From a virus: a stretch of DNA of 24,517 nucleotides. The notes under the pieces were generated by a model, which did not search any database, was not told where the DNA came from, and saw only the letters and a program-made list of their open reading frames with translations. Each line of letters starts with the position of its first letter. Position 1 is the first letter of the stretch. Shown in pieces: positions 3,601 through 21,369 of the stretch. Position numbers and translations under genes: made by a program. The stretch is taken from the IMG/VR virus record IMGVR_UViG_3300020180_000330, positions 1-24,517 of that record. One strand, 5' to 3'.

Positions 3601-5589
3601 ATGGGTCTCGCGGATACCGCCAAGCTCGTCGTCAACCTGAGTCTGGCCGGTAACTTCGCGTCCAGTTTGGGCAAGGCCGGGAAGTCGCTCGACACGTTCG
3701 ACGGCAAGGTCTCGCGCACGTCATCGCGCGGGTATCAGGCCGGGCAACAGATCGGGACCGGCATCAAGAACGGCGCGCGCATCGCCGCGGTCGGCATCGG
3801 CATCCTGGCCTCGCAGGTGGCGCTCGGCCTCCGGTCGCTGGTGGAGCTGGAGCAGGCCACGGCGCAGACCGAGGCCGTCATCAAGTCCACGGGCGGCGCG
3901 GCCGGCGTTAGCGCCGAACAGGTGCGGGTCCTTTCGGAGAAGTACGAGGCGCTCAACGCCACCATCGGCGATGAGGTCATCCAGTCGGGTCAGAACCTGC
4001 TCCTGACGTTCACTGCCATCGGCAAGGAGGCGTTCGAGCCGACCCTGAAGGCTGCGCTGGACCTGTCCACGGCGCTCGGGACCGACCTCGACTCGGCCAT
4101 CACGACGGTCGGCAAGGCGCTGTCGGACCCCGCCAAGGCGATGGCGAGGCTGCGACGACAGGGCATCATCCTGACCAAGGCCGAGCAGAAGCAGATCGAC
4201 GCGCACCTGGACAACAATGACGCGCTGGGAGCGCAGAACGTCATCCTTGCTGCTCTTGACAAGCGCTACGGCGGATCGTTCCTCGGCAAGGGCGGGACCA
4301 CCGCGGCCAAGGTCGCCAAGTTCACGGACAGCATCGAGGACTTGCAGCGCGCTCTCGCCGAAGCACTGCTGCCGACCCTCGGCAACATCGCTGACGAGAT
4401 GTCAACGTTCCTCCAGGACCCCGCGGTCAAGGCTGGCATCAAAGACCTCGGCAAGGACATCGCGGGCCTGTTCAGCAAGGAGAACATCCGCAAGGGCGCG
4501 GACGTGCTGGGCGGGTTCCTGCGAGCGGCCAAGGATGCGGCACCGGCGATCGGCGCGGCAGCCAAGGCCGCGGGTGCCGTCATCGGAACCGCCGTCAAAC
4601 TGTTCAACTCCCTGCCGCCAGAGATCCAGTCGCTCGCCATCGGCGGCCTCGCCGTGAACAAGCTGACCGGCGGCCTCGTCACCAATCTCGCAGGCGGGCT
4701 CATCTCGTCTGTCCTCAAGCAACTCGTGTCGGGCGTCGTCAACGTCAACGGCGGCGTCGTCAACGTCGTGGGCGGCGGTGCTGGCGTGGTACCGGGCGGT
4801 GGCGGAGGGAAGCTGGGCGGCGTCGCTGGCCTGCTGAAGGTCGCGGTCGTCGGGGCCGTTGTCGTTGAGGGCTTCAACCTCTGGGCTCAGAGCATCGGGG
4901 CATTTGTTGACGCAAACAACGAGCTCGGTGCCCAAGGGCTAAACGCGGCCGAGATCAGTGCGATGCGCTACTACGAAGCGTCGGCTGCTGACCAGGCTTT
5001 CATGGCGAAGCGGCTTGGGCGTGTGCCCACGATCGCGGACTGGCAGTCGGCGATCGCCAAGCTCAACAAGCCCAAGCCTGACATCTCGTCTGGTTCTCCC
5101 AACGACCGAGAGGACCGCAACAAGCCGACCACGAGTTCGCTCACCAACGGCACGAAGTTCGACGCCAACCTCGCCCCGGCCGTCGCCAAGCTTCGCACGG
5201 AGTTCATGTCCAACATCGCCAACCTGCGGAAGGGGCTGGAGGGCAAGGGCGACAAGACGATCACCTCCGTCGAAGCCGCGAAGGCAGCGGTCAACGCGTC
5301 CAAGGACCGGCTGACGGCTGCCGCTGCCGAGACGAAGCGTGAGACATCCCGCGGCGCGATGCTCACCGCGTCGGCGTCCCGGCTCGGTGCATCCCAGACC
5401 TCGCTGGCGACCATGTTCGGCTCGGCTCGCATCGTCTCGGCCATCTATGCCAACCGGCCGGTCATCAACACCAACGTCAACGTCAACGCGACGACCGTCA
5501 CGAAGACCGCGACCGTGGCTGCTCGCTACGGGCCGTCCGGCGGCTCGCGGACTCGCGACGCCGTTGGCCCCAACGCCGGTGGGCGCTAG
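3601..5589 (+). CDS. Tail tape measure protein
   Basis: 662 aa, ATG 3601 with AGGTG six bases upstream. Ala/Gly/Lys-rich and largely helical, with the N-terminal region typical of tape measures (KSLDTFDGKVSRTSSRGYQ, then LVELEQATAQTEAVIKSTGG, then VIQSGQNLLLTFTAIGKE and ALGTDLDSAITTVGKAL). Hydrophobic stretches lie near residues 60-78 and 345-430; the latter includes Gly/Val-rich repeats (VVNVNGGVVNVVGGG). The C-terminus has short Asn/Val/Thr repeats. It sets tail length and is ejected with DNA. At roughly 1.5 angstrom per residue, 662 aa would suggest a tail near 100 nm (inference). Longest gene of the window, directly after the chaperone pair. Confidence 0.92.
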   Translation: MGLADTAKLVVNLSLAGNFASSLGKAGKSLDTFDGKVSRTSSRGYQAGQQIGTGIKNGARIAAVGIGILASQVALGLRSLVELEQATAQTEAVIKSTGGAAGVSAEQVRVLSEKYEALNATIGDEVIQSGQNLLLTFTAIGKEAFEPTLKAALDLSTALGTDLDSAITTVGKALSDPAKAMARLRRQGIILTKAEQKQIDAHLDNNDALGAQNVILAALDKRYGGSFLGKGGTTAAKVAKFTDSIEDLQRALAEALLPTLGNIADEMSTFLQDPAVKAGIKDLGKDIAGLFSKENIRKGADVLGGFLRAAKDAAPAIGAAAKAAGAVIGTAVKLFNSLPPEIQSLAIGGLAVNKLTGGLVTNLAGGLISSVLKQLVSGVVNVNGGVVNVVGGGAGVVPGGGGGKLGGVAGLLKVAVVGAVVVEGFNLWAQSIGAFVDANNELGAQGLNAAEISAMRYYEASAADQAFMAKRLGRVPTIADWQSAIAKLNKPKPDISSGSPNDREDRNKPTTSSLTNGTKFDANLAPAVAKLRTEFMSNIANLRKGLEGKGDKTITSVEAAKAAVNASKDRLTAAAAETKRETSRGAMLTASASRLGASQTSLATMFGSARIVSAIYANRPVINTNVNVNATTVTKTATVAARYGPSGGSRTRDAVGPNAGGR

Positions 5590-7320
5590 ATGGCACCCGT
5601 CTACCGGCTGGCCGAGGTGGGTGGAAAGATCTACACCGACATCTCCAGCTACTTCCGCCTGTACCAACTCGATGTGTCGATGAACGCCGAGGAAGGGTCG
5701 GTCAACCAGTCCACGATCCAGGCCGACGACCCGACCGGCGTCTTCGATATCGTCGGCACCCGCAGGCTGGTCATCAGCGACGACACGGCCAGTAGCTCGA
5801 ACACGCGCATCTGGGACGGGTACGTCGCTGGCCGGCGCGTCCACCGTGGCGACTCTCAACTGACCGGCACGGCGCGGGTCTGGGACATCGACCTCGTGGA
5901 CATCAACTCCCTGCTGGCGTTGCGGGTCATCACCGGGACCGACGCCAACCGACCCGCCGAGACGGACGTGGCCCGTGTCCAGTGGCTGTACGGGAGCAAC
6001 GAGAACGCGCACATCACCGACTCGCTGTACCTGAACACGTCGGGCGGCGTGGCGATGGATGCCGCCGACTATCGCGGCCAGCGGTTCAATCAGGTGCTGG
6101 ACGACTGCGCCCAGGCATCGGGCAAGAACTACTTCGTGTGGTGGCGCGAAGAGGTCGCCAAGCTCTCGCTCTGGTACGACTTCGCCTCCAGCACCAGCTA
6201 CAGCTCCCCGCTGCGCCTGTCCAACGTCTCGACCGATGTGGACTCGGTCCTGACATTCGCCATCAGCCCTGACACCGAGCTGTCTCGCTCACCGGATCGG
6301 GTCAACAGCGGGGCCTATCTGCCCTTCGACGGCGGGGCGGTCTACGTCCAGAACACCGCCACGGCCAACTCGTTCGTCCGGCGCGACGCGAACATGCCCT
6401 CGGAGAACGTCAAGTCAACGGCCAAGGCCACGGCGCGAGCGAACCGCTACCTGCTGGAGATGAACACCGAAGAGGACGTCATCACGACGACCGTCCAGCT
6501 TCCGGCGGCCAAGGTCAACTTCATCATGCAGGGGATGCGCGTCCAGTTCAAGGCGTCCCACCTGCCGGGGTACACCGATTTCGTGTGGGCTCGCGTGCTC
6601 AATCGGTCCGTCCAGCAAGTCTCCGAAGAGTTCTACGACGTGAAGATGGAACTCTCGGTGGTGACGTGCTGGAGCCTGATCGGCGAGGGTTACGACTACG
6701 GGGACGCGCCGCTCAACCTGACCCCGACGTGGGACACGACCCCCGCGCCTGGCGACGTGATGCTGGGCTTCGGCACGTCGTCGGTCACGCCCGTCGATGG
6801 TCTGCCGGCGGGTTGGGTTGATCTCGGGCAATCGGACGGGGCACTCTCGTTCGTGTCGGTCGGTGCGTACGCCAAAGTCGCGGGGGCCGGGGAGACAGAC
6901 CCGGTGTTCGCGCGTATCGAACACTTCACCAACCTCGCGGTGCTCGCGTTCCGCAACGTCGGGGACATCGGGACGGTCACCGTATACGGCGACCTCGGCG
7001 CGACCACGAGCCTGACGCTGACCGACGCCGTCGCCGATGGTCCGGGTTTCCTCGTGTGTGCTGTCGCCATCCATAACTTCGATACCGGCGCTCGCATCCT
7101 CACCCCGCCGGTCGGGTTCGTGGAGGTCATGCAGGTCAAGGGCGGCGTCGGCCTGTTCGGGACGACCCGCGATTACCCATCGACGTCGATCGGCTACTAC
7201 CCCGTGACGTCGGCTGGGACGTATGACCTGACCTGGACCCTGTCGAACACCTTCTTCGACTGGGTCCAGACCGGCATCGCCGTGTTCATCGCGACCGATG
7301 GCGATGCGTGCGTCGTATGA
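5590..7320 (+). CDS. Tail hub / minor tail protein with C-terminal beta domain
   Basis: 576 aa. ATG 5590 follows the tape measure TAG with no gap. The N-terminal part (about 1-370) resembles tail-tip hub proteins: NQSTIQADDPTGVFD, RLVISDD and IWDGYVAGRRV strands, a LVDINSLLALRVITG segment and KASHLPGYTDFVWARVLN, consistent with a protein of the distal tail ring. From about residue 380 a separate module starts after a Pro/Thr linker (TPAPGDVMLGFGT, GLPAGWVDLG, YAKVAGAGETDP, AVLAFRNVG). This pattern recurs at the ends of phage tail proteins and looks like a jelly-roll, probably host-surface binding. Domain boundaries are by eye; the hub role comes from position between tape measure and fibre. 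Confidence 0.75.
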   Translation: MAPVYRLAEVGGKIYTDISSYFRLYQLDVSMNAEEGSVNQSTIQADDPTGVFDIVGTRRLVISDDTASSSNTRIWDGYVAGRRVHRGDSQLTGTARVWDIDLVDINSLLALRVITGTDANRPAETDVARVQWLYGSNENAHITDSLYLNTSGGVAMDAADYRGQRFNQVLDDCAQASGKNYFVWWREEVAKLSLWYDFASSTSYSSPLRLSNVSTDVDSVLTFAISPDTELSRSPDRVNSGAYLPFDGGAVYVQNTATANSFVRRDANMPSENVKSTAKATARANRYLLEMNTEEDVITTTVQLPAAKVNFIMQGMRVQFKASHLPGYTDFVWARVLNRSVQQVSEEFYDVKMELSVVTCWSLIGEGYDYGDAPLNLTPTWDTTPAPGDVMLGFGTSSVTPVDGLPAGWVDLGQSDGALSFVSVGAYAKVAGAGETDPVFARIEHFTNLAVLAFRNVGDIGTVTVYGDLGATTSLTLTDAVADGPGFLVCAVAIHNFDTGARILTPPVGFVEVMQVKGGVGLFGTTRDYPSTSIGYYPVTSAGTYDLTWTLSNTFFDWVQTGIAVFIATDGDACVV

Positions 7321-8477
7321 AGATCACCCGACTCGGCCAAGCTACGCCGCTCCTCTCCGCAACGTCGCTCGGCGGCTCCGGCGGCACGCTGGACCCCGTG
7401 GTGGGCGGCGGTCTGGTGCCTGTCGCCAGCGGCTCCAACTCGTGGTCCTGGGGCAGCAACGTCTCGCTCATCACGGCTAACGGCTCTAACGCGGTGCTTG
7501 GGCCGCTCGTGAACTTCGCCGCCGGATCGAACATCACGCTTTCCGTGTCATCGAACACGCTGACCATCACGTCTGCCGCGGGTGGGGGCTCGACATCGTA
7601 CGGGTCCAACTCCAACGCGGTCGCGTCAGCCAACGATGGCGGGGCGTCCACGCTGGCGTCACGGGCCGATCACGTCCATCTCGGCGTCCGCTCGCTCGCC
7701 CATTCGTCCAACTCATTCTCAGGGCCGGTCATCCTCACCGCGTCCGGGACGCTGGGGATCACCAGCCCGACGCCCGGTACATACAACCTGTCGGCTGGCA
7801 CGGGCGGCGGCGGGGGCTCTGCGCTCACCGTCAAGGACGAGGGCGTGGCGCTCGCGACCGATGCCACGTCGCTCGATTTCGTCGGCGCAGGCGTGGTCGC
7901 GTCAGGGGCCGGGGCGACGAAGACGATCACCATCGCTGGTGGCTCAGGCTCTGGTGCGCTCGTCCTGTTAGAACAAAAGACTGCATCAGCCTCGGCGCAA
8001 CTCGACTTCACAACGTTCATCAGCTCGACCTACGATACCTATAAGATCGAAGGCATCGACATTGTGGCGGCTACTAGCGCGGCAGACCTACAGCTACAGA
8101 TCGGCACGGGCGGCGGGCCGACCTATGACACCGGCAACACCTACACTTGGGGGCGCCTCGGCTACCGCGCATCCGCCGCGACGGACAACGATGCCGGCTC
8201 GACCGGCATCGCCCGTATCTTCAAGTCGATGGACATAAGCGCAGGCTTCGGCTTCGGGACGTTTAGCCTGACTGCTTCCGGCCTGCAAAGCACCGCGCTC
8301 CGGAAGTCGTTCCATGGCACGCTCGCCTACGTCACGTCGGTATCGACGGAGATCATCTACGCCACGTTCGGCATGCACTGGATCACGGCAGGCACAGCCG
8401 TCACGGCGCTCCGGTTCGTGATGTCGTCCGGCAACATCGCGTCGGGCACGATCCGCATCTACGGGCTTACCAAGTGA
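7317..8477 (+). CDS. Tail fibre / receptor-binding protein
   Basis: 386 aa from ATG 7317 (ATGA overlap); GTG at 7308 would add three residues. The N-terminal two thirds is Gly/Ser/Thr/Asn-rich with short repeats (SNSWSWGSNVSL, NGSNAVLG, SSNTLTITSAAGGG, DHVHLGVRSL), typical of trimeric fibre shafts. The C-terminal domain (about 220-386) begins LVLLEQKTASASAQLDFT and ends FVMSSGNIASGTIRIYGL. This pattern is found at the tips of many phage and prophage fibres and is predicted to be a beta-sandwich. It should contact the host surface. It is the last large tail gene. Confidence 0.78.
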   Translation: MKITRLGQATPLLSATSLGGSGGTLDPVVGGGLVPVASGSNSWSWGSNVSLITANGSNAVLGPLVNFAAGSNITLSVSSNTLTITSAAGGGSTSYGSNSNAVASANDGGASTLASRADHVHLGVRSLAHSSNSFSGPVILTASGTLGITSPTPGTYNLSAGTGGGGGSALTVKDEGVALATDATSLDFVGAGVVASGAGATKTITIAGGSGSGALVLLEQKTASASAQLDFTTFISSTYDTYKIEGIDIVAATSAADLQLQIGTGGGPTYDTGNTYTWGRLGYRASAATDNDAGSTGIARIFKSMDISAGFGFGTFSLTASGLQSTALRKSFHGTLAYVTSVSTEIIYATFGMHWITAGTAVTALRFVMSSGNIASGTIRIYGLTK

Positions 8478-9162: not shown

Positions 9163-9384
9163 ATGACCACTCGCAGCCACCAAGGCATCGCGGCCATCGA
9201 GGGCCACCCGCCCGCCAAGGTCGATCACCGGCCGGACCCGACCTCTCTGGACCCGCGTCGTGCAGCGTGTCGCGATTGTGGCGCGCGCGTCCACTTTGTC
9301 CGCCGCACCTACGGTCAGCACGGACGCGCCGCCCATTGGCAGCACACGGGCGATGGGCTAGCTCAGTACAGGAGCTGGAAGTGA
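9163..9384 (+). CDS. Small zinc-ribbon-like protein, first gene of the rightward run
   Basis: 73 aa from ATG 9163, which coincides with the predicted transcription start. ATG 9136 in the same frame lies inside the promoter spacer and is unlikely. Has CRDC (Cys36, Cys39) followed by His59 and His61 (HWQH), a plausible single zinc site. Ends in GTGA overlap with a HTH gene. Family not recognised; being first behind the promoter suggests early expression. Confidence 0.62.
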   Translation: MTTRSHQGIAAIEGHPPAKVDHRPDPTSLDPRRAACRDCGARVHFVRRTYGQHGRAAHWQHTGDGLAQYRSWK

Positions 9385-9536
9385 AGCGTATCGACATCCC
9401 CGAACGACAGGTGCGCGACGCCATCAAGACCGCGCCGACCATGACCGCCGCCGCCGCATCCCTGGGCGTCAGCCGCGTGACGCTGTACCGGATGATGGCC
9501 CGGCACGGCATCGAGATTAAGAGGATCGTGTCGTGA
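9381..9536 (+). CDS. Small Fis-type helix-turn-helix protein
   Basis: 51 aa, GTG 9381 with AGGAG six bases upstream and a GTGA overlap. The C-terminal half (MTAAAASLGVSRVTLYRMM, then ARHGIE) is a clear Fis/NtrC-C-terminal type HTH ('AA..LGvsr.TLYr.l..hgI'). The short acidic/basic N-terminus may dimerise. It is probably a DNA-binding regulator. Its position second in the run behind the promoter at 9128 would allow autoregulation, which is inference. Confidence 0.7.
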   Translation: MKRIDIPERQVRDAIKTAPTMTAAAASLGVSRVTLYRMMARHGIEIKRIVS

Positions 9537-9748
9537 AACCCTGCCAGATGGCCGGTGGCTGCTACCACGAAGCCGTCGTCACCGCCCGCATCTACCGCGT
9601 GGGCGACCGGCCGTTGTGCCAGACGCACTTCGACTGGCTCGTCTCGCAGTTTGGCCAGGACTGCCGCGCCCTCGATGTGAACGCCTACGTCCCCGAGTGG
9701 AAGCGCCGCGCACTCCAGCGCGACGAGACGGCGCGGGTCGTCGCATGA
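9533..9748 (+). CDS. Small Cys/His protein, unknown
   Basis: 71 aa, GTG start in a GTGA overlap. Cys4, Cys10, then Cys29-x2-His32 (CQTHFDWL) make a likely zinc site of the type 'C..xxGC...yC..H' common in phages of high-GC hosts. The C-terminus is a basic helix (EWKRRALQRDETAR). No function can be assigned. Confidence 0.6.
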   Translation: MKPCQMAGGCYHEAVVTARIYRVGDRPLCQTHFDWLVSQFGQDCRALDVNAYVPEWKRRALQRDETARVVA

Positions 9749-9963
9749 CCGCCACGGAGCGGACGGCGCGCCAGCCGCACAAGTGCGCCCGACAGGCGTA
9801 CTGGGACCGCCTATCGGCCGAGTCCAGAGCATGGTATCGCGCGTCTCCGTGCCCCGAAGGCGGATACATCGCGGCCGGGGACAAGTACGCCGAGACAGAG
9901 GGTGGCGACCCGTTCCACCCGACCCGCCAGCATCTTGGATGTCTGGAATGGGTGGCGTCGTGA
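9745..9963 (+). CDS. Small Cys/His protein, unknown
   Basis: 72 aa from ATG 9745 (ATGA overlap). Pattern HKCARQAYWDRL, then CPEGGYIAAGDKYAE and HPTRQHLGC recalls phage proteins with 'C....I..Gd.Y.......H..C' in which the Cys/His residues bind a metal, although the first half-site here has only one Cys. Upstream in-frame sequence belongs to the neighbour's shadow frame. Function unknown. Confidence 0.55.
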   Translation: MTATERTARQPHKCARQAYWDRLSAESRAWYRASPCPEGGYIAAGDKYAETEGGDPFHPTRQHLGCLEWVAS

Positions 9964-10364
9964 ACACCCTCACCTACACCGGGGAACTGACCATCGAAGC
10001 GTGCCCGACCTGCGGGACGTGGCACGGCATCCCCACGACACTGCGCGAAGCGGCAATCAAAGACCACAGCAAGCTCATCTGGTGCCCCCTCGGACATAGC
10101 TGGTGGTTCATCGGCGAGACTGAGGCGCAGAAGCTCACGCGCTCGCTGAAGTGGGAGCGCGACCTGCGGGCGTCCGTAACCGCCGACCGCGATCAAGCCC
10201 GCGCCTCGCTCCGGGCGACGAAGGGCGTTGTGACGAAGCTCCGCAAGCGGACGGCTGAAGGCGAGTGCCCGTTCTGCGGCCAGCACCTCCGGGACCTAGA
10301 GCGCCACGTCAACCGGCAGCACGTCAACGAAGCGGCCGACGCACTGGCCGAGACCGACGCATGA
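9960..10364 (+). CDS. Zinc-finger protein with coiled-coil middle
   Basis: 134 aa, GTG 9960 in a GTGA overlap. Three parts: an N-terminal ribbon (CPTC at 15-18; Cys42 and His46 in WCPLGH), a charged helical segment likely to be coiled coil (about 55-98, SLKWERDLRASVTADRDQAR), and a C-terminal C2H2 finger (CPFC at 103-106, His116 and His121, RDLERHVNRQH). The finger spacing matches classical C2H2. Similar proteins occur in actinophage early regions without known role; DNA binding or dimerisation is plausible. Confidence 0.68.
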   Translation: MNTLTYTGELTIEACPTCGTWHGIPTTLREAAIKDHSKLIWCPLGHSWWFIGETEAQKLTRSLKWERDLRASVTADRDQARASLRATKGVVTKLRKRTAEGECPFCGQHLRDLERHVNRQHVNEAADALAETDA

Positions 10365-10495
10365 CCGCCCTCCGCCGCGCTCTCGCGGAATGGGACGCCA
10401 CACCCCGCGACCTCGCCCTGACCCTGCTCGCCGCGCCGGTCTGCCTGCTCGGGCTGTGGGCGGGGCTGGTGTTGCTGATCGCGGTGGCGGCGTGA
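10361..10495 (+). CDS. Small membrane protein
   Basis: 44 aa from ATG 10361 (ATGA overlap). A short charged N-terminus is followed by one hydrophobic segment (LALTLLAAPVCLLGLWAGLV to the end), so it is probably a single-span inner membrane protein with N-in or N-out not decidable. Its last ten residues (AGLVLLIAV) recur in the gene at 10686, at the nucleotide level too. Function unknown. Confidence 0.5.
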   Translation: MTALRRALAEWDATPRDLALTLLAAPVCLLGLWAGLVLLIAVAA

Positions 10496-10689
10496 GCGTC
10501 CGCGATGTCCACGTCCACGGTGTCCACCCGGTGCATGACCGGGGCGCGCCGATGGGCATCGAGATGACCCTCTTTTTGACCTACCTCAAGGGCGGACCGA
10601 TAGCGAAGGCCCCCATCAGCCGTGAACAGGCAATCCGACTCATCGAGCAGCTCGCGGCGGCGCTCCGCGTGACGGAGCCGCAGCCGTGA
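10492..10689 (+). CDS. Hypothetical protein
   Basis: 65 aa, GTG 10492 in a GTGA overlap. His/Val-rich start (VRDVHVHGVHPVHDRG), then a helix ISREQAIRLIEQLAAALRV. No domain recognised. In-frame Met at residue 21 is a possible alternative start, which would remove the His-rich segment. Confidence 0.5.
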   Translation: MSVRDVHVHGVHPVHDRGAPMGIEMTLFLTYLKGGPIAKAPISREQAIRLIEQLAAALRVTEPQP

Positions 10690-10793
10690 CCCGCTACCAG
10701 CTAGTCCCCTGCCCCGTCCCCGGCTGCACCCGCATCCACGGGGTCGTGCCCCTGCTGGCCGGGCTCGTGTTGCTGATCGCGGTGGGGGGATGA
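10686..10793 (+). CDS. Chimeric 35-aa gene made from two neighbours
   Basis: GTG 10686 in a GTGA overlap, stop at 10791-10793 in an ATGA overlap with the next gene. Residues 2-23 are identical to the start of the gene at 11017 (69-bp exact repeat). Residues 24-35 (LLAGLVLLIAVGG) copy the end of the membrane gene at 10361, with 29 of 33 bases matching (10463-10495 against 10761-10793). The product would be a Cys-bearing head (CPVPGC) on a truncated membrane tail. Probably a recombination by-product that kept its frame; function doubtful. Confidence 0.5.
   Translation: MTRYQLVPCPVPGCTRIHGVVPLLAGLVLLIAVGG
10687..10755 (+). repeat. 69-bp direct repeat, copy 1
   Basis: Identical, base for base, to 11018-11086 (offset 331). 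Covers the first 23 codons of the chimeric gene at 10686. Homology breaks at 10756, where similarity to the end of the 10361 gene begins. Confidence 0.9.
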
Positions 10794-11020
10794 GCACTCT
10801 TGTCGAGACGACTTGTGACGGTTGCGGCGCTGTCAAGCCGGGACAGCGCGGACTGACCGCGCCGTGGTGGGACTGGCAGTTCACATCGATGGACGTTCCA
10901 AGTGAGCTACGCATTGATGGCATCGCGACCGGCTGGCCGCTCCTATCGGGATCGTGGGACTTGTGCCCGACGTGCTCAAAGAAGGTGCGCGCAGCCATCG
11001 ACGCGGCTGGCGAGCGATGA
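10790..11020 (+). CDS. Zinc-ribbon-like protein, unknown
   Basis: 76 aa from ATG 10790 (ATGA overlap). Two CxxC knuckles, CDGC (9-12) and CPTC (59-62), frame a Trp-rich middle (PWWDWQF) as in treble-clef or rubredoxin-like ribbons. The final helix SKKVRAAIDAAGER is typical of such proteins. It lies between the two copies of the 69-bp repeat, so duplication or deletion by homologous recombination could remove or multiply it. No specific function. Confidence 0.65.
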   Translation: MSTLVETTCDGCGAVKPGQRGLTAPWWDWQFTSMDVPSELRIDGIATGWPLLSGSWDLCPTCSKKVRAAIDAAGER

Positions 11021-11211
11021 CCCGCTACCAGCTAGTCCCCTGCCCCGTCCCCGGCTGCACCCGCATCCACGGGGTCGTGCCCCTGCGTTCAGCGTCTGAC
11101 TCGCCTGATGCCTTGGGGGCCGAAAGCGATCGGGCGCTGAACGGAGCGGCATCGCTCCCCCATCCCATGCCAGCGCCGCAAGGCCGTCTGGTTCGGGCTT
11201 CCGAGAGGTAG
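11017..11211 (+). CDS. Small Cys protein, parent copy of the duplicated segment
   Basis: 64 aa from ATG 11017 (ATGA overlap). Begins MTRYQLVPCPVPGCTRIHG, a CPxxGC-type metal turn with a following His. After residue 23 it becomes Ala/Pro/Ser-rich (SDSPDALGAESDRALNGAA) with little coding character, so the gene may itself be a truncated form running into leader sequence. A 6-bp hairpin (GGAGCG/CGCTCC, 11143-11158) lies within it. Function unknown. Confidence 0.45.
   Translation: MTRYQLVPCPVPGCTRIHGVVPLRSASDSPDALGAESDRALNGAASLPHPMPAPQGRLVRASER
11018..11086 (+). repeat. 69-bp direct repeat, copy 2
   Basis: Second exact copy of 10687-10755. Together they flank the zinc-ribbon gene at 10790. The pair is a substrate for deletion of a 331-bp unit. 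Confidence 0.9.
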
Positions 11212-11219
11212 CCCACCGC

Positions 11220-11280
11220 GCCCCGGCCGGTTTGCCCGTTTCCGGCCGGGGCTGCTTCCAACGGGCAAACGGGCAAGGAG
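11220..11280 (+). promoter_or_regulatory. Structured leader with mutually exclusive stems at a ribosome site
   Basis: Stem A: an 11-bp perfect pairing 11220-11230 with 11242-11252 (CCCCGGCCGG/CCGGCCGGGG core). Its loop, TTTGCCCGTTT, is complementary to downstream sequence: 11230-11240 is the exact reverse complement of 11260-11270 (11 bases). ACGGGCAA is repeated at 11261-11268 and 11269-11276, the second running into the AAGGAG ribosome site (11275-11280) of the gene at 11290. The RNA could form a pseudoknot or switch between stems, changing access to the site. ACGGGCAA could instead be a protein operator. No T-run follows, so it is not a standard terminator. Confidence 0.55.
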
Positions 11281-11289
11281 AACGGGGCA

Positions 11290-11568
11290 ATGACGACAGA
11301 GACAGCGACCACGGCAGCGACCATCGAGGCAGAGGGCTATCCGTGGGACGCACCGGACTCGCCGACGATCTACGCGTCCATCCACATCCTCGCGCAGGCC
11401 CCGGCGGTCACGTTCGGTGCGGGCACCTACCCGTTCGTGACGCTCCGCGGCGGCTTGACCCTGGGTTCAGACGTCACCGTGAGCCTGACCGGCGATGCGG
11501 CACAGCGTGCGGCCTTCACCGCCGCGCTCCGGGACGTTGCCGACGCCATCGACGGGTGGACGGAGTGA
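11290..11568 (+). CDS. Hypothetical protein behind the structured leader
   Basis: 92 aa, ATG 11290, AAGGAG nine bases upstream; the first gene of the run that does not overlap its predecessor. Beta-strand-rich middle (TIYASIHILAQAP, TYPFVTLRGGLTLGSDVTV), then a helix (AAQRAAFTAALRDVADAID). It has the look of a small alpha+beta phage protein of unknown role. Its independent ribosome site with the folded leader suggests separately controlled translation. Confidence 0.62.
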   Translation: MTTETATTAATIEAEGYPWDAPDSPTIYASIHILAQAPAVTFGAGTYPFVTLRGGLTLGSDVTVSLTGDAAQRAAFTAALRDVADAIDGWTE

Positions 11569-11810
11569 CGACCCGCGACCGCACCACGACACCGCGGGTC
11601 TACCGGCTATCCGGGGAGAGTCCGGCACCGACGCTGGACGTCGGCCGGCTGGCACGGGCCATCTGGTATCACCGTGAACACGACAACGCCGGACCGCAAG
11701 GCTGCGATCACAACTGCGCTCCGAACATCGCCCGCGAGTACGACACGCTGGCAGCGGGCAGCGAAGACCTCGCAGCGGGCGACCATCACCTACACCCGGT
11801 GTCGGCATGA
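11565..11810 (+). CDS. Small protein with LDVGxLARA motif
   Basis: 81 aa, GTG 11565 in a GTGA overlap. Contains LDVGRLARAIWYH and IAREYDTL, with Cys/His in between (GCDHNC). The same framework, LDVGILARALI then LAREYADL, occurs in the gene at 13360, so the two are probably diverged paralogues. No function known. The upstream in-frame stretch lies within another gene. Confidence 0.58.
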   Translation: MTTRDRTTTPRVYRLSGESPAPTLDVGRLARAIWYHREHDNAGPQGCDHNCAPNIAREYDTLAAGSEDLAAGDHHLHPVSA

Positions 11811-12037
11811 CCGCGCCGAGCCTCGACGCGGCATGGGCCGAGGTCGAGGCCGCGCTGCCCGAAGGGTGGGGCATCCTGTCGCTCAAGTCCGTCGGGACCC
11901 TCTGGAGCGCGTCGGCTGACGCGCCCAGTCTCGTCGGGCTCCCGTGGCACGAGCGGCATGTGCTCGCCCACGGCCTGACTCCCGCTGCCGCGCTGCTCGC
12001 GCTCGCCGCGGCGCTCCGCGACGGGCGGACGAAGTGA
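11807..12037 (+). CDS. Hypothetical protein
   Basis: 76 aa from ATG 11807 (ATGA overlap). N-terminal helix LDAAWAEVEAALPEGWG, a short strand pair with a conserved-looking Trp (GTLWSASAD), and an Ala/Leu-rich C-terminal helix (PAAALLALAAALRDG). Looks like a compact folded phage protein; family not recognised. Confidence 0.58.
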   Translation: MTAPSLDAAWAEVEAALPEGWGILSLKSVGTLWSASADAPSLVGLPWHERHVLAHGLTPAAALLALAAALRDGRTK

Positions 12038-12273
12038 CGACCATCCCCCGACTCCACGAACGAGCGCAGGAGGCGTTCCATGCGGCCCTCGTGGCCCGCG
12101 AGCGCAGCGGCAAGTGGGACCCGATCCTGGCGGACGAATACCTGAACCGCGAGGCCGACGTCCGCTGGGAAGAGTCGAAGCTGGCGATGGACGCGCTCCA
12201 GGACCGCGACGAAGACTACTGGGCCATGTACGAGACGGAGGCCGAGATGCGTGCCGCCCACGGCGACCGATGA
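12034..12273 (+). CDS. Helical acidic hypothetical protein
   Basis: 79 aa from GTG 12034 (GTGA overlap). Almost wholly helical and charged (RLHERAQEAFHAALVARERS, EADVRWEESKLAMDALQDRD, EDYWAMYETEAEMRAA), with coiled-coil potential over most of its length. No Cys. No function assigned; it may be a protein-binding factor. Confidence 0.55.
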   Translation: MTTIPRLHERAQEAFHAALVARERSGKWDPILADEYLNREADVRWEESKLAMDALQDRDEDYWAMYETEAEMRAAHGDR

Positions 12274-12470
12274 TGGCTGGCGACGAAGTGGTCATCACGC
12301 CGACCGGCATCCTGGCCGAGGCTTTCGCGCGGCTTGTCAAAGACGCTGAGGCCCCGCATTCGCATTCGTGGTGGCGTACCAGTCCGCTGCTCGCTGGTAC
12401 CGGGCTCGCCTATCACCTTGACCAACTCGGATACAAGGTCGTGCCCAAGACGCCGGAGGCCGACCGATGA
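12270..12470 (+). CDS. Hypothetical protein
   Basis: 66 aa from ATG 12270 (ATGA overlap with a TGATGATGG start). Begins MMAGDEVVITPTGILAEAF; ends TGLAYHLDQLGYKVVPKT. Immediately precedes the exonuclease gene with a 4-base overlap, so it is co-translated with the recombination set. Family not recognised. Confidence 0.55.
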   Translation: MMAGDEVVITPTGILAEAFARLVKDAEAPHSHSWWRTSPLLAGTGLAYHLDQLGYKVVPKTPEADR

Positions 12471-13363
12471 CGACCGAGTACGACGTGACGGTGCCCCACA
12501 AGACTGGCGTCTCGCCGATAGCGATGCCCCCGACTAAGGCCATCGACCCTGAGCGCATCGGCCTGTCCAAGTCCCTGATGTCCTCGCCCTGCGAACGGCG
12601 CGGCTGGTTCAGCCAGCACGTCCGGGATAACGACGGTCGCCGCCTTCGCTTCCCGATGCCCGAGCGCGTGACCTTCGGCAAGGCCGTTGACGTAGCCCAC
12701 GGCTACATCGTGTGGCACGAGCGAAACGGCCTGCCGTGGACCATCGGCGAGGCGGTGGCGGATGGCGTCAAGGAAGCACGACAGGACGCGGCATCGTGGG
12801 CCGAGATCACGGACATCGAGACGTTCGTGGCCCAAGTTCACACCGCGATGCGGAAGTTCATGGAACAGCCGGACGGGCTGGAGCGGTTGCGCCCATTCAT
12901 CCCCGGCATCCGCATCCAAGGCAACGATGGCGAGACGCTGCGGTCCGGCGACATCATCGGGACGCCCGACTACCTGCTCCCCGATGGGTCGGTCCTGGAC
13001 GTCAAGACCGCCAGCCGGAAGTACAGCGAAGACAAGTTCTGGAAGTCACCCGAGATGGGCATCTACGCCCTGCTCGCCACGGCGCTGGCCGAGGGTGCGC
13101 TGCCGCCCAAGCTGATCTATCAGGTCTACGTCCGGGTGGCGCAGCCGTACTGGATGTGGATCGAGACGGAAGGCACGGGCGATCTCGTCGCCATCGGGAG
13201 CGATACCGCCGATCACTGGCGCGAAGTCGTCGCCTTCGATGACCCCATCAAGGCCGCGCCCAACACCATGTTCTGCGGGGATTGCCCCTACGCACAGCCC
13301 ATCCCTGACATCGGCTTTGACGGCTGCTCCGTGGGCCGCCGGATGCCGAGGGAGGCAGCATGA
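12467..13363 (+). CDS. PD-(D/E)XK exonuclease, Cas4/AddB-like with Fe-S cysteines
   Basis: 298 aa, ATG 12467 (ATGA overlap). Nuclease motifs in order: His78 (VAHGYIVW), Asp168 (GTPDYL), Asp178-x-Lys180 (VLDVK), and Gln219 (YQVYV), the RecB-family pattern. Four Cys sit as in Cas4 and AddB: one N-terminal (Cys42, SPCERR) and three C-terminal (Cys270, Cys273, Cys287), a probable 4Fe-4S cluster that staples the domain. It would resect double-stranded ends to give single strands for the annealing protein encoded one gene later, as in Red-type systems. Cas4 without CRISPR genes is usual in phages; no CRISPR array is present here. Confidence 0.85.
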   Translation: MTTEYDVTVPHKTGVSPIAMPPTKAIDPERIGLSKSLMSSPCERRGWFSQHVRDNDGRRLRFPMPERVTFGKAVDVAHGYIVWHERNGLPWTIGEAVADGVKEARQDAASWAEITDIETFVAQVHTAMRKFMEQPDGLERLRPFIPGIRIQGNDGETLRSGDIIGTPDYLLPDGSVLDVKTASRKYSEDKFWKSPEMGIYALLATALAEGALPPKLIYQVYVRVAQPYWMWIETEGTGDLVAIGSDTADHWREVVAFDDPIKAAPNTMFCGDCPYAQPIPDIGFDGCSVGRRMPREAA

Positions 13364-13611
13364 CTGAGCTCGACGTAGGCATATTGGCGCGTGCCTTGAT
13401 ATTGACCGGTCTTTATATCGACGAGACGCCAGCCCTGCCGGATGAGTTAGCAGCCGATCTCGCTCGGGAATACGCCGACCTGTCGCGCCACCTCATCGAG
13501 CGCCCGGCCGTGGATAGATCGACAGCATGTCCGCTGGACGCGCGCTGCTACCGCTATCAGGGCCACGAGGGCGAGCATCTCTATGGGGAAGCCGCGAGGA
13601 AGCTGACATGA
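13360..13611 (+). CDS. Small protein with LDVGxLARA motif and Cys pair
   Basis: 83 aa from ATG 13360 (ATGA overlap), between the exonuclease and the annealing protein. Shares LDVGILARALI / LAREYADL with the gene at 11565. C-terminal part has CPLDARCYRYQGHEGEH, a likely C-C-H-H metal site (Cys57, Cys63, His69, His73). Its place inside the recombination set hints at an accessory role, which is not shown by the sequence. Confidence 0.6.
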   Translation: MTELDVGILARALILTGLYIDETPALPDELAADLAREYADLSRHLIERPAVDRSTACPLDARCYRYQGHEGEHLYGEAARKLT

Positions 13612-14273
13612 CTGACCAGATGAACGTCGCAGCCGAGCTGCTGCGCGCCGAGTTCGACCACGGCGAGGTCCGGCAGTTCACCGGGCGCGGGAACAAGGTC
13701 TATGACTACATCGAAGACGAGACGGTCATGGACCGCCTTGACGAAGTGCTGGGCATCGGAGCCGTGTCGTTCGACTTCGAACCGCTCGACCACGGCTGCG
13801 TCAAGGGAACGTTGATCGTGACGTGGCCCAACGGCGAGCGATCCCACTACCAGGACTTCGGCTACACGAACAACGCCGACTCCGGGGAGCCGCTGAAGGA
13901 AGCGGTGAGCGATGCCATCCGCCGTCTTGGCCGGTACGTCGGTGTGGCCCGCTACCTGTACCGCAAGCACGCGCCAGCATCGCCCACGCGCCCGCAGTCT
14001 GCCCCACAACGAACGCAACCCGTCCAAGCGGTGAATGACCCGTATGCGGACCTCCCGAACGACTGGGAGACGCCCGGCTACCCGGCCCCTGCCGCCCGCG
14101 ACGACGAGGCCGACTCCTGCCCGGAGCACAACCTCCGCTGGACTCTGAAGCCTGCCGGGACCAGCAAGGCGGGCAAGGCATACGACGCCTTCTGGAAGTG
14201 CGACGGCCGAACCAATGACGAGTACTGCAAGGCCAAGCCGACGAAGGCGTGGCAGGCGAGGCACGAGGGATGA
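13608..14273 (+). CDS. Rad52/Sak-like single-strand annealing protein with zinc tail
   Basis: 221 aa from ATG 13608 (ATGA overlap). Residues 1-120 match the Rad52/22 fold: DRLDEVLGIGAVSFDFEPL, VKGTLIVTWPNGE, then LKEAVSDAIRRLGRYVGVAR and YLYRK ('sKAavSDAlKRaar..GvgrYLY'). A Pro/Gln/Ala linker (121-168) leads to a zinc-ribbon-like end, CPEH (171-174) with Cys198 and Cys207, preceded by GTSKAGKAYDAFWK. Such a tail is often seen on annealing proteins of phages from high-GC hosts. It should anneal complementary strands made by the exonuclease at 12467. The exonuclease, annealing protein and resolvase lie within 2.3 kb. Confidence 0.87.
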   Translation: MTDQMNVAAELLRAEFDHGEVRQFTGRGNKVYDYIEDETVMDRLDEVLGIGAVSFDFEPLDHGCVKGTLIVTWPNGERSHYQDFGYTNNADSGEPLKEAVSDAIRRLGRYVGVARYLYRKHAPASPTRPQSAPQRTQPVQAVNDPYADLPNDWETPGYPAPAARDDEADSCPEHNLRWTLKPAGTSKAGKAYDAFWKCDGRTNDEYCKAKPTKAWQARHEG

Positions 14274-14746
14274 GCGACCTGCCGTTCGACTACCCATCGG
14301 AGCCCAACCTCGGAGCGGCACCGCGGAGGGTCTGCCGCCGCCACGAGTGGCTCCAGACAGCGGACGCGGTCGGGGGCGGCCGCCGCGTGGTCTGCTTTCG
14401 CTGCTGGAAGGTGCGTGATGACACCACCTCCCGGCGCGGCAGGAACAACCGATCGCGCGGGAACGCTGCCGAGCTTGTCGTCGCCCGCCACCTTGGCGGA
14501 AAGAAGATGGGGCCGCTCGGGCTGCCGTGGGATGTCGAGATGCCCGGCTACGCCCGACTCCAGGTCAAGAAGCTGGCGACCGCGCCGTCCCTGCGCTCCG
14601 TCGCCTCCGAGCTGGCGCGCATCGGGTCGGGCGCGGAAATGCCCGGATTTATCTGGGTCGAGCCGGGACGCGGCGGCGAGCGACTGATCGTGTTCCGTCT
14701 GAGCGACTTCGCCGAACGTCACGGCATCCCGGAGGTAGAGGAATGA
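14270..14746 (+). CDS. Hjc-like Holliday junction resolvase (PD-(D/E)XK)
   Basis: 158 aa from ATG 14270 (ATGA overlap). N-terminal Cys/His ribbon (Cys22, His25, Cys42, Cys45). From residue 56 a resolvase-type PD-(D/E)XK core: RSRGNAAELVVARHLGGKK (Glu68), WDVEMPGYARLQVKK (Asp88, Gln98-x-Lys100) and a C-terminal LIVFRLSDFAERHG. Archaeal Hjc and related phage enzymes have Glu, Asp and Glu-x-Lys; the Gln in place of Glu is seen in some family members. It would cut four-way junctions made by annealing or replication. Immediately follows the annealing protein gene. Confidence 0.78.
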   Translation: MSDLPFDYPSEPNLGAAPRRVCRRHEWLQTADAVGGGRRVVCFRCWKVRDDTTSRRGRNNRSRGNAAELVVARHLGGKKMGPLGLPWDVEMPGYARLQVKKLATAPSLRSVASELARIGSGAEMPGFIWVEPGRGGERLIVFRLSDFAERHGIPEVEE

Positions 14747-15033
14747 GCGGCTCCGACGCGCTGCGGGTGGCGCTCATTCGCCTCCCACCCCCGGCCAACT
14801 TCGCCGCCTACCACGCGGCGGTGCTCGCGTCGCTAGAAGAACAGGGCTACCTCATCACCGACCGCGACGCCTACGAACTGCTGACAAAGGCAGCCGAGTC
14901 CGCGCTGATGCCGACCGGCGAACACCGCCTCTTGGATGGCTACTGCCCGGATTGTCAGGGCGGTTGCATGCTGGGCTTCGGGGCTGAGGAAGTGCGATAC
15001 GTCGAGCCCTCGCCGATCGAGCCTAAGCCATGA
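14743..15033 (+). CDS. Hypothetical protein with CPDC knuckle
   Basis: 96 aa from ATG 14743 (ATGA overlap). N-terminal helical part (ALRVALIRLPPPANFAAYHA), then YLITDRDAYELLTKAAESA and CPDCQGGC near residue 66-73. The GHEH-like zinc site is incomplete: three Cys are close together. No function. Confidence 0.55.
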   Translation: MSGSDALRVALIRLPPPANFAAYHAAVLASLEEQGYLITDRDAYELLTKAAESALMPTGEHRLLDGYCPDCQGGCMLGFGAEEVRYVEPSPIEPKP

Positions 15034-15275
15034 CGGCCATGACGCAATCCCAACGTGTCCTCGCCTACCTCCGCGCCCATCCCCGAGCCACGGCAATGGA
15101 GATCGGCATGGGTGTCCATCCATGGGTGAGCAACCCGCGGGCGCGCATCTCGGATCTCCGCGCCGCGGGCTACGTCATCGAGCCCCAACGCCGGACCGAC
15201 GGCAAGATGGGCTTCGTCGTGGTCCGCGAACCTCACCGGGTCACGACAGGCGTGGCTGTGGAGATGGGCCCGTGA
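15030..15275 (+). CDS. Small winged-helix protein
   Basis: 81 aa from ATG 15030 (ATGA overlap). The pattern TQSQRVLAYLRAHPRATAME, then PRARISDLRAAGYVIEPQRR and GFVVV is a winged helix-turn-helix: helix 1, a turn before the second helix, recognition helix RARISDLRAAG, and a beta wing. Similar small proteins are common near phage replication genes. Likely a DNA-binding regulator; target unknown. Confidence 0.7.
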   Translation: MTAMTQSQRVLAYLRAHPRATAMEIGMGVHPWVSNPRARISDLRAAGYVIEPQRRTDGKMGFVVVREPHRVTTGVAVEMGP

Positions 15276-15502
15276 GAACTCCGGCTGGCATGATCGTTCG
15301 TCGCCAAGGCGCGCAGTGGATCGGCGTTCTTCGATGTGGAGCCGGCACGCCCGAAGAGGCGCGCGACCTAGCGGATGGCTACATGGCCCGTCGTGGGATT
15401 GCGTGCGAGTGGGCTAAGACCATTACCGGCTACCGCCCGAAGGTCGGGGTCATGGGCTACCGGCGATACGACGTGGTCTATCGCCTGGAGTCAAAGCCAT
15501 GA
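15272..15502 (+). CDS. Hypothetical protein
   Basis: 76 aa, GTG 15272 in a GTGA overlap. Strand-helix-strand pattern (MIVRRQGAQWIGVLR, PEEARDLADGYMARRG, YDVVYRLE), the look of a small ferredoxin-like or dsRBD-like alpha+beta domain, too short to decide. It precedes the methyltransferase with a 4-base overlap. Confidence 0.58.
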   Translation: MRTPAGMIVRRQGAQWIGVLRCGAGTPEEARDLADGYMARRGIACEWAKTITGYRPKVGVMGYRRYDVVYRLESKP

Positions 15503-16635
15503 AGAGCGGGGCGCTCGATGTATCGCGGCAGGCGTTGGCTGCTGCGACCGGGTTTGACAATCACCCCGCGCACGGGGGGGGGCAGGTCGTGACTACGGAT
15601 ATGTCGTGGATCGAACCAGAGGTCAGCCTGTCCGGCGCTCTGCTGGAGCGTTTCATCGTGCCGCCCTTCAGCATCCTGGACACCCGCCAGGGCTACTGGC
15701 AGGAGCGTCGCCGATGGTGGTTGGGGCTGGGGCTCCAGTCGGAGCTAGGGCGAGGCGATATCTCCGGCGTGACGCGGTATCGCATCGCGGGACAGACCTC
15801 GACAGCCAACCCGTCTTCGCAGGTGCGCTTGGCTGACCCGCGCTATGGGCCAGCCCGCGCCTTTAGCACCGACATGATGAAAGGCGAGCACGTCGGATCG
15901 GACATTACCGCGGCTGGCACGTCCATCTTCGACCCCGTTCTTTGCGAGCTTGCCTATCGTTGGTTCTGTCCACCCGGTGGCGTTGTGCTCGACCCGTTTG
16001 CGGGCGGTAGCGTCCGTGGCATCGTGGCCGCCTACCTGGGGCACCCGTACCTTGGCGTCGACCTATCGGCGCGACAGGTCGAAGCCAACCGTGAGCAGGC
16101 GGCGCGCATCCTGACCACGCAGCCCATCCCCGAGTGGATCGTGGGCGACAGCGGCGCGGTCCTGCCGGGCGTCACCAGGTCGGCCGACCTCGTCTTCACC
16201 TGCCCTCCGTACTACGACCTAGAGGTCTACAGCGACGACGCCCGCGACCTGTCGGCGCTACGCAGCTACGCGGACTTCCTCGTCGCGTATAGGGCCATCA
16301 TCGCGGCGGCCGTTGACCGCCTGCGACCCGGCCGCTTCGCCTGCATTGTCGTCTCCGAAATCCGGGGCAAGGAAGGGACATTCCAGGGCCTCGTGCCCGA
16401 CACCATCGCAGCCTTTATCCATGCCGGGATGCGCTACTACAACGAGGCAATCCTGATCAACTCGGCTGGGTCGCTGCCAATCCGCATCACCAAGCAGTTT
16501 GAGGCAGGTCGCAAGCTTGGCCGGACGCATCAGAACGTGCTGGTGTTCCTGAAGGGCGACCAGCCGCGCGGGTGGTCGTATGACCGCGAAGCGCCCCCTG
16601 ACCCGCAGACAACGATGTTCGGGGACGACGCGTGA
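15499..16635 (+). CDS. Phage DNA methyltransferase (N4/N6-amino type)
   Basis: 378 aa from ATG 15499 (ATGA overlap). SAM motif I VLDPFAGG (163-170) followed by YLGVDLS; catalytic motif IV TCPPY (234-238). Order I then IV with no partner specificity domain points to a solitary phage enzyme. The N-terminal block (FIVPPFSILDTRQGYW, QERRRWWLGLGLQSELGRG), DPVLCELAYRWFCPPGG and the C-terminal GSLPIRITKQFEAGRKLGRT, HQNVLVF belong to a type widespread in phages of high-GC bacteria. It methylates adenine or cytosine amino groups, probably to resist host nucleases. A G9 tract (15574-15582) lies in codons 26-28, in a poorly conserved N-terminus; ATG 15601 is an alternative start. Confidence 0.85.
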   Translation: MKSGALDVSRQALAAATGFDNHPAHGGGQVVTTDMSWIEPEVSLSGALLERFIVPPFSILDTRQGYWQERRRWWLGLGLQSELGRGDISGVTRYRIAGQTSTANPSSQVRLADPRYGPARAFSTDMMKGEHVGSDITAAGTSIFDPVLCELAYRWFCPPGGVVLDPFAGGSVRGIVAAYLGHPYLGVDLSARQVEANREQAARILTTQPIPEWIVGDSGAVLPGVTRSADLVFTCPPYYDLEVYSDDARDLSALRSYADFLVAYRAIIAAAVDRLRPGRFACIVVSEIRGKEGTFQGLVPDTIAAFIHAGMRYYNEAILINSAGSLPIRITKQFEAGRKLGRTHQNVLVFLKGDQPRGWSYDREAPPDPQTTMFGDDA

Positions 16636-16958
16636 GCGCCCTCCGCCTCTCCCGCCCCGGCCAGCCCACCCGCCTCGTAATCCTCGATGACGGCGCACGG
16701 CCTGTCGGTCGCCGCTACATCGGCGGATCGCTGGTCGCCGCCGCCCCACCCGTTCGTCGCCAGGCCAACGCGGTATCCCCGGCGCGCGCCGAACAGCTTG
16801 CCGCGGCACATGAGCGATACAGAGCCAAGCACACCGTGACGTGCGGTTTGTGGATGGGCAAGGCCCGCGCCAAGTGCGCCCGGACGCCGGACCATCGCGG
16901 CCCGTGCCGGACGCCGACGTACATGCGCGAGTCGGCGCTGGCGAGACGGTCGGCATGA
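16632..16958 (+). CDS. Protein with CGxWM...CAR metal motif
   Basis: 108 aa from GTG 16632 (GTGA overlap). Basic N-terminal half of low complexity, then CGLWMGKARAKCARTPDHRG with Cys71, Cys82, His88 and Cys92 as likely metal ligands. The same CGxWM-x3-AR-x2-CAR-x-P-x-H framework is in the gene at 17125, so both carry one short metal module. Role unknown; sits between methyltransferase and nuclease genes. Confidence 0.58.
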   Translation: MSALRLSRPGQPTRLVILDDGARPVGRRYIGGSLVAAAPPVRRQANAVSPARAEQLAAAHERYRAKHTVTCGLWMGKARAKCARTPDHRGPCRTPTYMRESALARRSA

Positions 16959-17128
16959 CGCCGACGACCCGCGAGGAGGCAGCGGCGCTCGCCGTCCTCG
17001 CCAAACGCGGGCGCATCCTAGCTATCGTCATCCCGAAGGGCATCGAGCGTGAGCAGATCCTGACCCTCCAGCGTGAGGTCAGCGCGAAGCTGGAGCTCCT
17101 CGTCGCCGAGCGAGGACCGCTGACGTGA
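16955..17128 (+). CDS. Small helical hypothetical protein
   Basis: 57 aa from ATG 16955 (ATGA overlap). TREEAAALAVLAKRGRILAI, VIPKGIEREQILTLQREV and SAKLELLVAERG read as one compact helix-strand-helix. Upstream in-frame residues are a shadow of the gene at 16632. No function. Confidence 0.52.
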   Translation: MTPTTREEAAALAVLAKRGRILAIVIPKGIEREQILTLQREVSAKLELLVAERGPLT

Positions 17129-17376
17129 TCCGGCTCCCCGGCGTCTGCATCGTCTGCCGTGCGCCTGTCGTCTGGACGGGCAAGAGCTGGAAGAACCCCG
17201 GCCAGCGGAGTGGTCGCCACATCTGCGCAGCGGAGCGGGCCGTGTGCGGCTCGTGGATGCCGCGCGCCAGGGAACGGTGCGCCCGTGGTCCGGGGCACGT
17301 CGTCAAGGCACACCGGACGGCCTACGCGATGGAGAACCAGTACCAAGCCGCCATGGGTCGGGAGCGGATGGCGTGA
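17125..17376 (+). CDS. Zinc-ribbon protein, paralogue of the 16632 module
   Basis: 83 aa from GTG 17125 (GTGA overlap). An N-terminal knuckle CIVC (8-11) pairs with the later Cys34/Cys41, and the CGSWMPRARERCARGPGH module (Cys41, Cys52, His58) mirrors that at 16632. Ends in a helix AYAMENQYQAAMG. A DNA- or RNA-binding role is possible but not shown. Confidence 0.58.
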   Translation: MIRLPGVCIVCRAPVVWTGKSWKNPGQRSGRHICAAERAVCGSWMPRARERCARGPGHVVKAHRTAYAMENQYQAAMGRERMA

Positions 17377-20234: not shown

Positions 20235-20464
20235 CCCGCGACGTAGCAGCCAAGGCCCAGCATTCCTGGGTGGACCGGGTAATCGGCCGACACGATTGGG
20301 TTATCCAGGCCACATCGCGCTACCACTTCCGGGGGGGCGGCACCGCGGTCTTCGAGTACGAATGCCGGTGCGGCGCTCTGAAGGAGTCCGTATGGCCCGG
20401 CGAGCACGCGGCGGGGCGTCGCCTGACCGTCGAGGAGAAGAAGGCGCTAGGGCCGTATCTGTGA
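20231..20464 (+). CDS. Hypothetical protein with CxC-H pattern
   Basis: 77 aa from ATG 20231, with AGGAG five bases upstream and ATGA overlap. DWVIQATSRYHFRGGGTAVF, then YECRCGALKES and EHAAGRRLTVEEKK. Three strands and a helix, possibly with one metal site (Cys-x-Cys, His). The pattern resembles a ribbon on its own, function unknown. Confidence 0.58.
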   Translation: MTRDVAAKAQHSWVDRVIGRHDWVIQATSRYHFRGGGTAVFEYECRCGALKESVWPGEHAAGRRLTVEEKKALGPYL

Positions 20465-20727
20465 CCGCCGCCGACATCGCAGCGGCGCTGGCCGCGCTGC
20501 CCGAACTGCCCGTGTTTGCCCAAGAACTGCGGTACCTCACGATATTCGAGGCCGAGGGGGTAACGACCGCCGTCAACCTCGCCGAGCCCCTGTGGCGCGT
20601 AGCTGAGGCGGCACGGGCGGTCGCGAGGCCGGGCGACTGGGACAGCTCAGACGACGAGGAACGGGCATGGGTCGGCCTACGCACCGCCCTCGCCGACCTA
20701 GACGCCAACGTTGAGGAGACGCCGTGA
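20461..20727 (+). CDS. Hypothetical protein A, source of later duplicated ends
   Basis: 88 aa, GTG 20461 in a GTGA overlap. Ala/Leu/Glu-rich helical protein: ADIAAALAALPELPVFAQEL, RVAEAARAVARPGDW, ALADLDANVEETP. Both its ends recur downstream: the first 36 bases at 21328-21363 (33 of 36 identical), the last 37 bases at 21295-21331 (35 of 37). This suggests an old tandem duplication. No function. Confidence 0.55.
   Translation: MTAADIAAALAALPELPVFAQELRYLTIFEAEGVTTAVNLAEPLWRVAEAARAVARPGDWDSSDDEERAWVGLRTALADLDANVEETP
20701..20727 (+). repeat. 27-bp exact gene-end repeat, copy 1
   Basis: Encodes DANVEETP and the stop/start overlap GTGA. Identical to 21305-21331. Extending left by ten bases gives 35 of 37 matches. 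Confidence 0.88.
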
Positions 20728-20954: not shown

Positions 20955-21331
20955 CCCTCGACGCCACCCGCAAGCTCGCCGACGAAGGTCTGGCGGGGGA
21001 GCCGACTACCGAGGCCGGACGACGGCTAGCGGAAGCCATAGCCAGTCTCGATGAACGACTGCCCATCGACCCCGGCGATGCCATCCTCGCCATCGAAGCC
21101 GAAGCCGCCACCCCGCCAGCGCTGAGATGCGATTACGACTGTGATGCCTGCCGCGCGCAGCCCGAGGACGAGGAGTACCCCGACACCCTCCGCGAGACGC
21201 TCCGCATGGCGCTGCCGCGAGCCATCAACTTTCGCTTCCTTCCGCCACGCATCGTCTCCGACGCCATCTGGGGTGAGGTTGCCGACGAACTGGTCGCCGC
21301 CCTGGACGCCAACGTTGAGGAGACGCCGTGA
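20951..21331 (+). CDS. Hypothetical protein with Cys cluster and duplicated C-terminus
   Basis: 126 aa from ATG 20951 (ATGA overlap). Helical N-terminus (ATRKLADEGLAGEPTTEAGR), a Cys cluster CDYDCDAC around residue 59-66, a helix INFRFLPPRIVSDAI, and ends AALDANVEETP, which repeats the C-terminus of the gene at 20461 at DNA level. The C-terminal tail was probably acquired by recombination with that gene. Confidence 0.55.
   Translation: MTLDATRKLADEGLAGEPTTEAGRRLAEAIASLDERLPIDPGDAILAIEAEAATPPALRCDYDCDACRAQPEDEEYPDTLRETLRMALPRAINFRFLPPRIVSDAIWGEVADELVAALDANVEETP
21305..21331 (+). repeat. 27-bp exact gene-end repeat, copy 2
   Basis: Second copy, ending the gene at 20951 and directly followed by the stub of the gene at 20461. 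Same GTGA junction as copy 1. Confidence 0.88.
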
Positions 21332-21369
21332 CCCCCGCCGCCCTCGCAGCGGCGCTGGCCGCGAGGTAG
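21328..21369 (+). pseudogene. 13-codon stub of the gene at 20461
   Basis: GTG 21328 opens a frame encoding VTPAALAAALAAR then TAG. Its first 36 bases match the start of the gene at 20461 in 33 positions. The GTGA junction with the previous gene is intact, but the body is gone. It reads as a leftover of a tandem duplication later deleted. Confidence 0.7.

Follow-up and report, generated by a model that had tools for sequence, protein, structure and literature searches.

The window (the whole stretch of DNA analysed, a 24,517-bp uncultured virus record) contains five consecutive small genes on the plus strand that are linked by NTGA stop-start overlaps. In order, these are gene A (10361-10495; a small protein of 44 aa with a hydrophobic C-terminal half), gene B (10492-10689; 65 aa, of unknown function), a 35-aa ORF (10686-10793; GTG start, MTRYQLVPCPVPGCTRIHGVVPLLAGLVLLIAVGG), gene D (10790-11020; 76 aa) and gene C (11017-11211; 64 aa). 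Gene D has two CxxC pairs and is zinc-ribbon-like, with weak profile matches. The 35-aa ORF overlaps gene B through GTGA (10686-10689) and gene D through ATGA (10790-10793), and its predicted product has a Cys-rich start and a hydrophobic end of 15 residues. After gene C and before the next start, the gap at 11212-11289 has a pair of inverted repeats (11226-11240 and 11260-11274; 93%), a possible terminator or regulatory site.

The 5′ piece of the 35-aa ORF is one copy of the longest repeat within the window. Its 69 bp at 10687-10755 (H1) are identical to 11018-11086 (H2) on the same strand, so the match to the head of gene C that the preliminary description had pointed out is exact. The identical stretch leaves out the first base of the start codon, which is GTG in the ORF and ATG in gene C. 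The two copies bracket the 3′ piece of the ORF and gene D.

The last 33 bp of the ORF had been likened to the end of gene A, and 29 of these 33 are identical to 10463-10495. The similarity extends further, to 34 of 39 positions between 10757-10795 and the gene A tail at 10459-10497 (plus strand). A 42-nt query from the 3′ piece matched the gene A tail at 34 positions and the next-best site in the window at 25. When its 39-nt core was codon-shuffled (500 shuffles), the best match genome-wide was 29/39 against the 33 observed; this resemblance and the 69-bp match are both far beyond chance. We refer to the 3′ piece as T′ (10757-10797, plus strand), which continues into the start of gene D. The ORF is thus a fusion of two sources, as had been described: the head of gene C and the tail of a gene like A. 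Its frame, stop codon and both 4-base overlaps are intact, which is unsurprising since a gene edge came with each piece and one join in three would fall in frame.

A relative with an undivided A-B-C order

A search for a related phage in the unduplicated state, which the preliminary description had proposed, yielded the IMG/VR contig IMGVR_UViG_3300020213_000253 (G001; 21,085 bp). It is collinear with the window over much of its length, mostly at 93-98% identity, and the flanks of the locus are 95-98% identical. In G001 the gene order is A-B-C, with gene C (one copy, in a 70-aa version) directly after gene B, and neither the fusion ORF nor gene D is present. G001 matches 10365-10755 and 11018-11178 of the window, with a single 69-bp stretch common to the two matches and nothing between them; the 331 bp that comprise T′ and gene D have no counterpart in G001. 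Judged from this comparison, the fusion is the derived state, as each phage has intact A and C genes and the window alone has the fusion. Gain of D in the window is indistinguishable from its loss in G001, because recombination between H1 and H2 would give the G001 order without a scar.

We searched IMG/VR, GTDB genomes and GenBank phages using DNA patterns in the 69-bp repeat and the gene A tail, and the proteins B, C, D, the nuclease and the annealing protein described below. G001 was the sole relative found in these collections; a phage with a gene A-like gene followed directly by D and C (A′-D-C) was not among the matches, and gene D had no relative there. Three other contigs with a 19-nt pattern of the gene A tail were unrelated and were discarded as chance matches.

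The G001 sequence also bears on the source of T′. Over 37 nt, T′ differs from the gene A tail of G001 at two positions and from the window's own at five. At all three diagnostic sites, where the gene A tails of the two phages differ, T′ has the G001 base, and it is 92.7% identical over 41 nt to the gene A/B junction of G001 (14099-14139), past the stop-start overlap. Two further bases are peculiar to T′. Given these alleles, T′ came from a G001-like allele and probably not from the gene A now next to it, which the preliminary description had taken as its source. The source can be placed no closer than G001-like, given the two private bases and the small number of diagnostic sites (three).

The exact identity of the 69-bp piece had been taken as a sign of recent origin, which is loosely supported: 0/69 differences bound the divergence of H1 and H2 at less than ∼4.2% (95%). 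Gene B is likewise identical between the window and G001 (0 differences in 177 nt), and therefore 69 identical bases cannot place the event after the split of the two phages. Dating of the duplication from the identity of H1 and H2 failed, as 69 bases are too few. The single copy in G001 differs from both window copies at 6 of 69 positions, clustered within about 16 bases. This cluster may reflect a later duplication, or a patch that was exchanged; as H1 and H2 are the same, a recombinant origin of the G001 copy would not be recognisable.

Proposed origin of the fusion ORF

We propose that a single unequal crossover between two related phages left the 35-aa ORF as its novel joint, and give this reading somewhat better than an even chance. 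One parent, Q, would have had the order A-B-C, as in G001. The other parent, P, would have had the order A′-D-C, with a gene A tail of the G001 type. Joining of Q after base 69 of the gene C head to P inside the A′ tail would produce A-B-[C head + A′ tail]-D-C. The 69-bp repeat would then consist of one gene C head per parent (H1 from Q, H2 from P), and the stop-start overlaps would be inherited with the gene edges of each parent, the join being in frame. The putative crossover point (10752-10756, plus strand) includes a CTG common with the gene A tail (10454-10456), whereas the bases C and T that follow it match neither known gene A allele; homology at the joint would amount to ∼3-4 bases (CTG or CTGC, 10752-10755).

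A single crossover of this kind would give both flanks, gene D and both overlaps. It would also explain the unequal pieces: the 5′ piece is exact because both parents contributed the gene C head, and the divergence of the 3′ piece reflects another allele of the gene A tail. The different ages that had been ascribed to the two pieces are not needed, since one event between phages accounts for both. The novel joint, and the stacking of B and D, are seen in the window; parent P was not found in the databases searched. What speaks against the single crossover is the lack of an A′-D-C phage among the database matches, together with the small numbers of diagnostic sites (three) and of known relatives (one).

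The window phage encodes an Erf/Rad52-like single-strand annealing protein (13608-14273, plus strand; PHROG 1097, E 2.9e-7), which scores 19.5 bits with Pfam Rad52_Rad22, slightly below the cut-off of 20.3. This protein may have taken part in the exchange, although it is not required, as the microhomology at the joint is merely 3-4 bases. A PD-(D/E)XK nuclease-family protein (12467-13363, plus strand; Pfam PF12705, over the curated cut-off) is its possible partner.

The polarity of the change could be the reverse of what the gene content suggests, with the fusion predating the split and G001 or an ancestor having lost the fusion and gene D by scarless recombination between H1 and H2. Such recombination gives exactly the G001 gene order, and identical H1 and H2 are compatible with an older duplication when gene B has also stayed unchanged between the phages. 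An added conversion is needed, however, as both window copies are alike where G001 has its six differences. We hold this to be a minority possibility, and one that would alter the date alone, because either way the fusion arose after intact A and C. An identical end structure would also arise from an insertion with two junctions, in which D and the end of A′ were copied from another phage into an A-B-C genome. The template switch would have gone out at the CTG(C) in gene C and come back at the TGA starting gene C, 69 bp upstream, making the 69-bp repeat a target duplication. In line with this, other cassette borders relative to G001 lie on the TGA overlap, and 9-10 of 14 breakpoints are ≤6 nt from an NTGA seam. 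We nevertheless regard it as unlikely, as it takes two joints where one suffices, plus a return exactly at the start of gene C. Recombination within one genome, in which the C and A genes now nearby supplied the two pieces, has in its favour that both sources are <350 bp away and that the 69-bp piece matches the window's gene C without a difference. The 3′ piece, however, is nearer the gene A tail of another phage than that of its neighbour, and local copying accounts neither for the origin of D nor for the unequal divergence of the two pieces, which makes it distinctly unlikely.

We also considered an assembly artefact from a mixed population, as the window is a metagenome contig of an uncultured virus and 69 bp can mislead short-read assembly. 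At the H1-T′ and D-H2 joints, the overlap with alternative assembly paths is ∼3-5 bases, too short for an assembler to have joined them falsely; a repeat error may reorder the paths around the repeat, and would not be expected to make these joints. An artefact is therefore highly improbable. The idea that the fusion as a whole is a collapsed repeat was rejected for the same reason, the novel joints having 3-5 bases in common with the alternative paths. The fusion ORF might itself have been selected, either as a functional small membrane protein or as a translational bridge coupling D to B. Its frame is open, it has 4-base overlaps at either end, and its last 15 residues are as hydrophobic as those of gene A (Kyte-Doolittle mean 2.77 versus 2.67). 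All these properties, however, arrive with the pieces, and the ORF is not conserved, the sole known relative being without it; the sequences are too few for a selection test, and we find selection very doubtful.

The preliminary description had presented the ORF as a gene born by local recombination. The allele of T′ points to another phage, and birth presumes an expressed product that has a use. From the alleles and gene orders, the 35-aa ORF is most likely a by-product, or scar, of exchange between phages rather than a new gene made by local copying.

Comparison with known systems

The closest published case to this locus is genes 67/68 of the mycobacteriophage Island3, which is near-identical to Brujita and differs from it by one small gene (Pope et al. 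2011, PMC3029335). Island3 has a direct repeat of 58-60 bp at gene edges, of which the shorter phage, Brujita, has a single copy, and gain of the gene via an unknown partner could not be distinguished there from its loss between the repeats (PMC3029335). We re-found the published repeat at 7290-7347 and 7547-7604 of L014. The window and G001 similarly differ by gene D and the fusion, with a gene-edge repeat that is doubled in one and single in the other, and they present the same ambiguity of gain and loss. In Island3, however, the repeat consists of two gene tails, and a head-tail fusion of different genes is not described there, whereas the window has an exact repeat of gene heads with a two-gene fusion ORF between the copies.

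Rad52-like phage recombinases promote mosaicism by recombining short, diverged sequences (De Paepe et al. 2014, PMC3945230). The window phage, like those phages, encodes an Erf/Rad52-like protein, recognised here from its sequence, but the joint described above has merely 3-4 common bases, unlike the exchanges reported in that work. Two models have been put forward for phage mosaicism, namely illegitimate recombination with selection for intact genes, and recombination at short conserved boundary sequences (PMC3233612). As in these models, most breakpoints between the window and G001 are at gene boundaries. The boundaries here are 4-base stop-start overlaps, themselves short common sequences, and the two models are inseparable at this locus. 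The locus is an unusually readable case of known phage mosaicism, with the fusion ORF as a by-product: the joint of an out-of-register exchange is visible at base resolution, and the undivided state is seen in a near relative. What looked like gene birth by local copying is better understood as a side product of inter-phage recombination.

Gene-edge repeats and stop-start seams

Frequent out-of-register joining in this lineage would be expected to leave additional gene-edge repeats among genes that lie close together, and those found in the window fit the proposed crossover. Gene tails are repeated at 20690-20727 and 21294-21331, and gene heads at 20461-20496 and 21328-21363; further repeated heads are those of the genes starting at 21960, 22271 and 22549. 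A 24-nt repeat (11550-11573 and 12019-12042; 92%) spans a gene tail, a GTGA overlap and the next gene head. Repeats anchored on seams scored 69, 32, 27 and 24, compared with a maximum of 17 in a codon-shuffled null (200 trials), and weaker scores of 18, 16 and 16 are suggestive by rank. In G001, which is without most of the right arm, no gene-edge repeats were present at the same threshold. The small-gene arms of the GenBank actinophages L015 and L016 have repeats, none of which join gene edges; this comparison covers three actinophages (Island3, L015 and L016) and is not a survey.

Between the window and G001, 9 or 10 of the 14 breakpoints in 9381-17376 are ≤6 nt from an NTGA seam, compared with 5% of the region. 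The corresponding P of ∼1e-9 to 1e-11 is indicative, as the breakpoints are paired and non-independent and the list of seams was compiled manually. The clustering is not proof of targeting, since selection for intact overlapping genes predicts the same. A broader reading, that NTGA overlaps in this lineage are recombination seams by which gene heads and tails of the small-gene arm are repeatedly recycled, and that some of the resulting scars (the 35-aa ORF, for instance) are retained as functional small proteins, strikes us as improbable. The many gene-edge repeats make this lineage suited to asking if stop-start overlaps steer recombination or merely survive selection.

Several smaller observations were made on these repeats. 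In the segment 21294-21363, duplicates of the tail and of the head of gene 20461-20727 are joined in that order, and the head copy is shortened to a 13-codon ORF (21328-21369), an arrangement that resembles another out-of-register joining scar. The gene starts at 21960, 22271 and 22549, within a span of <600 bp, begin alike (NTGACCATCGCCGA..., MTIAE/MTIAD). The 24-nt repeat flanks the genes at 11565 and 11807, both of which are missing from G001. Extra cassettes relative to G001 have short flanking repeats on NTGA overlaps, examples being CGNCGCATGACCGCC at 9739-9753 and 10355-10369 and CATGACTGA at 13359 and 13607. Finally, gene B in G001 begins with 11 nt (TGAACACCCTC, at the gene A/B overlap; L002, about 5040-5060) that also open the window gene at 9960 (9960-9973), a gene that G001 does not have here, as if the first codons of gene B in G001 had been derived from it.
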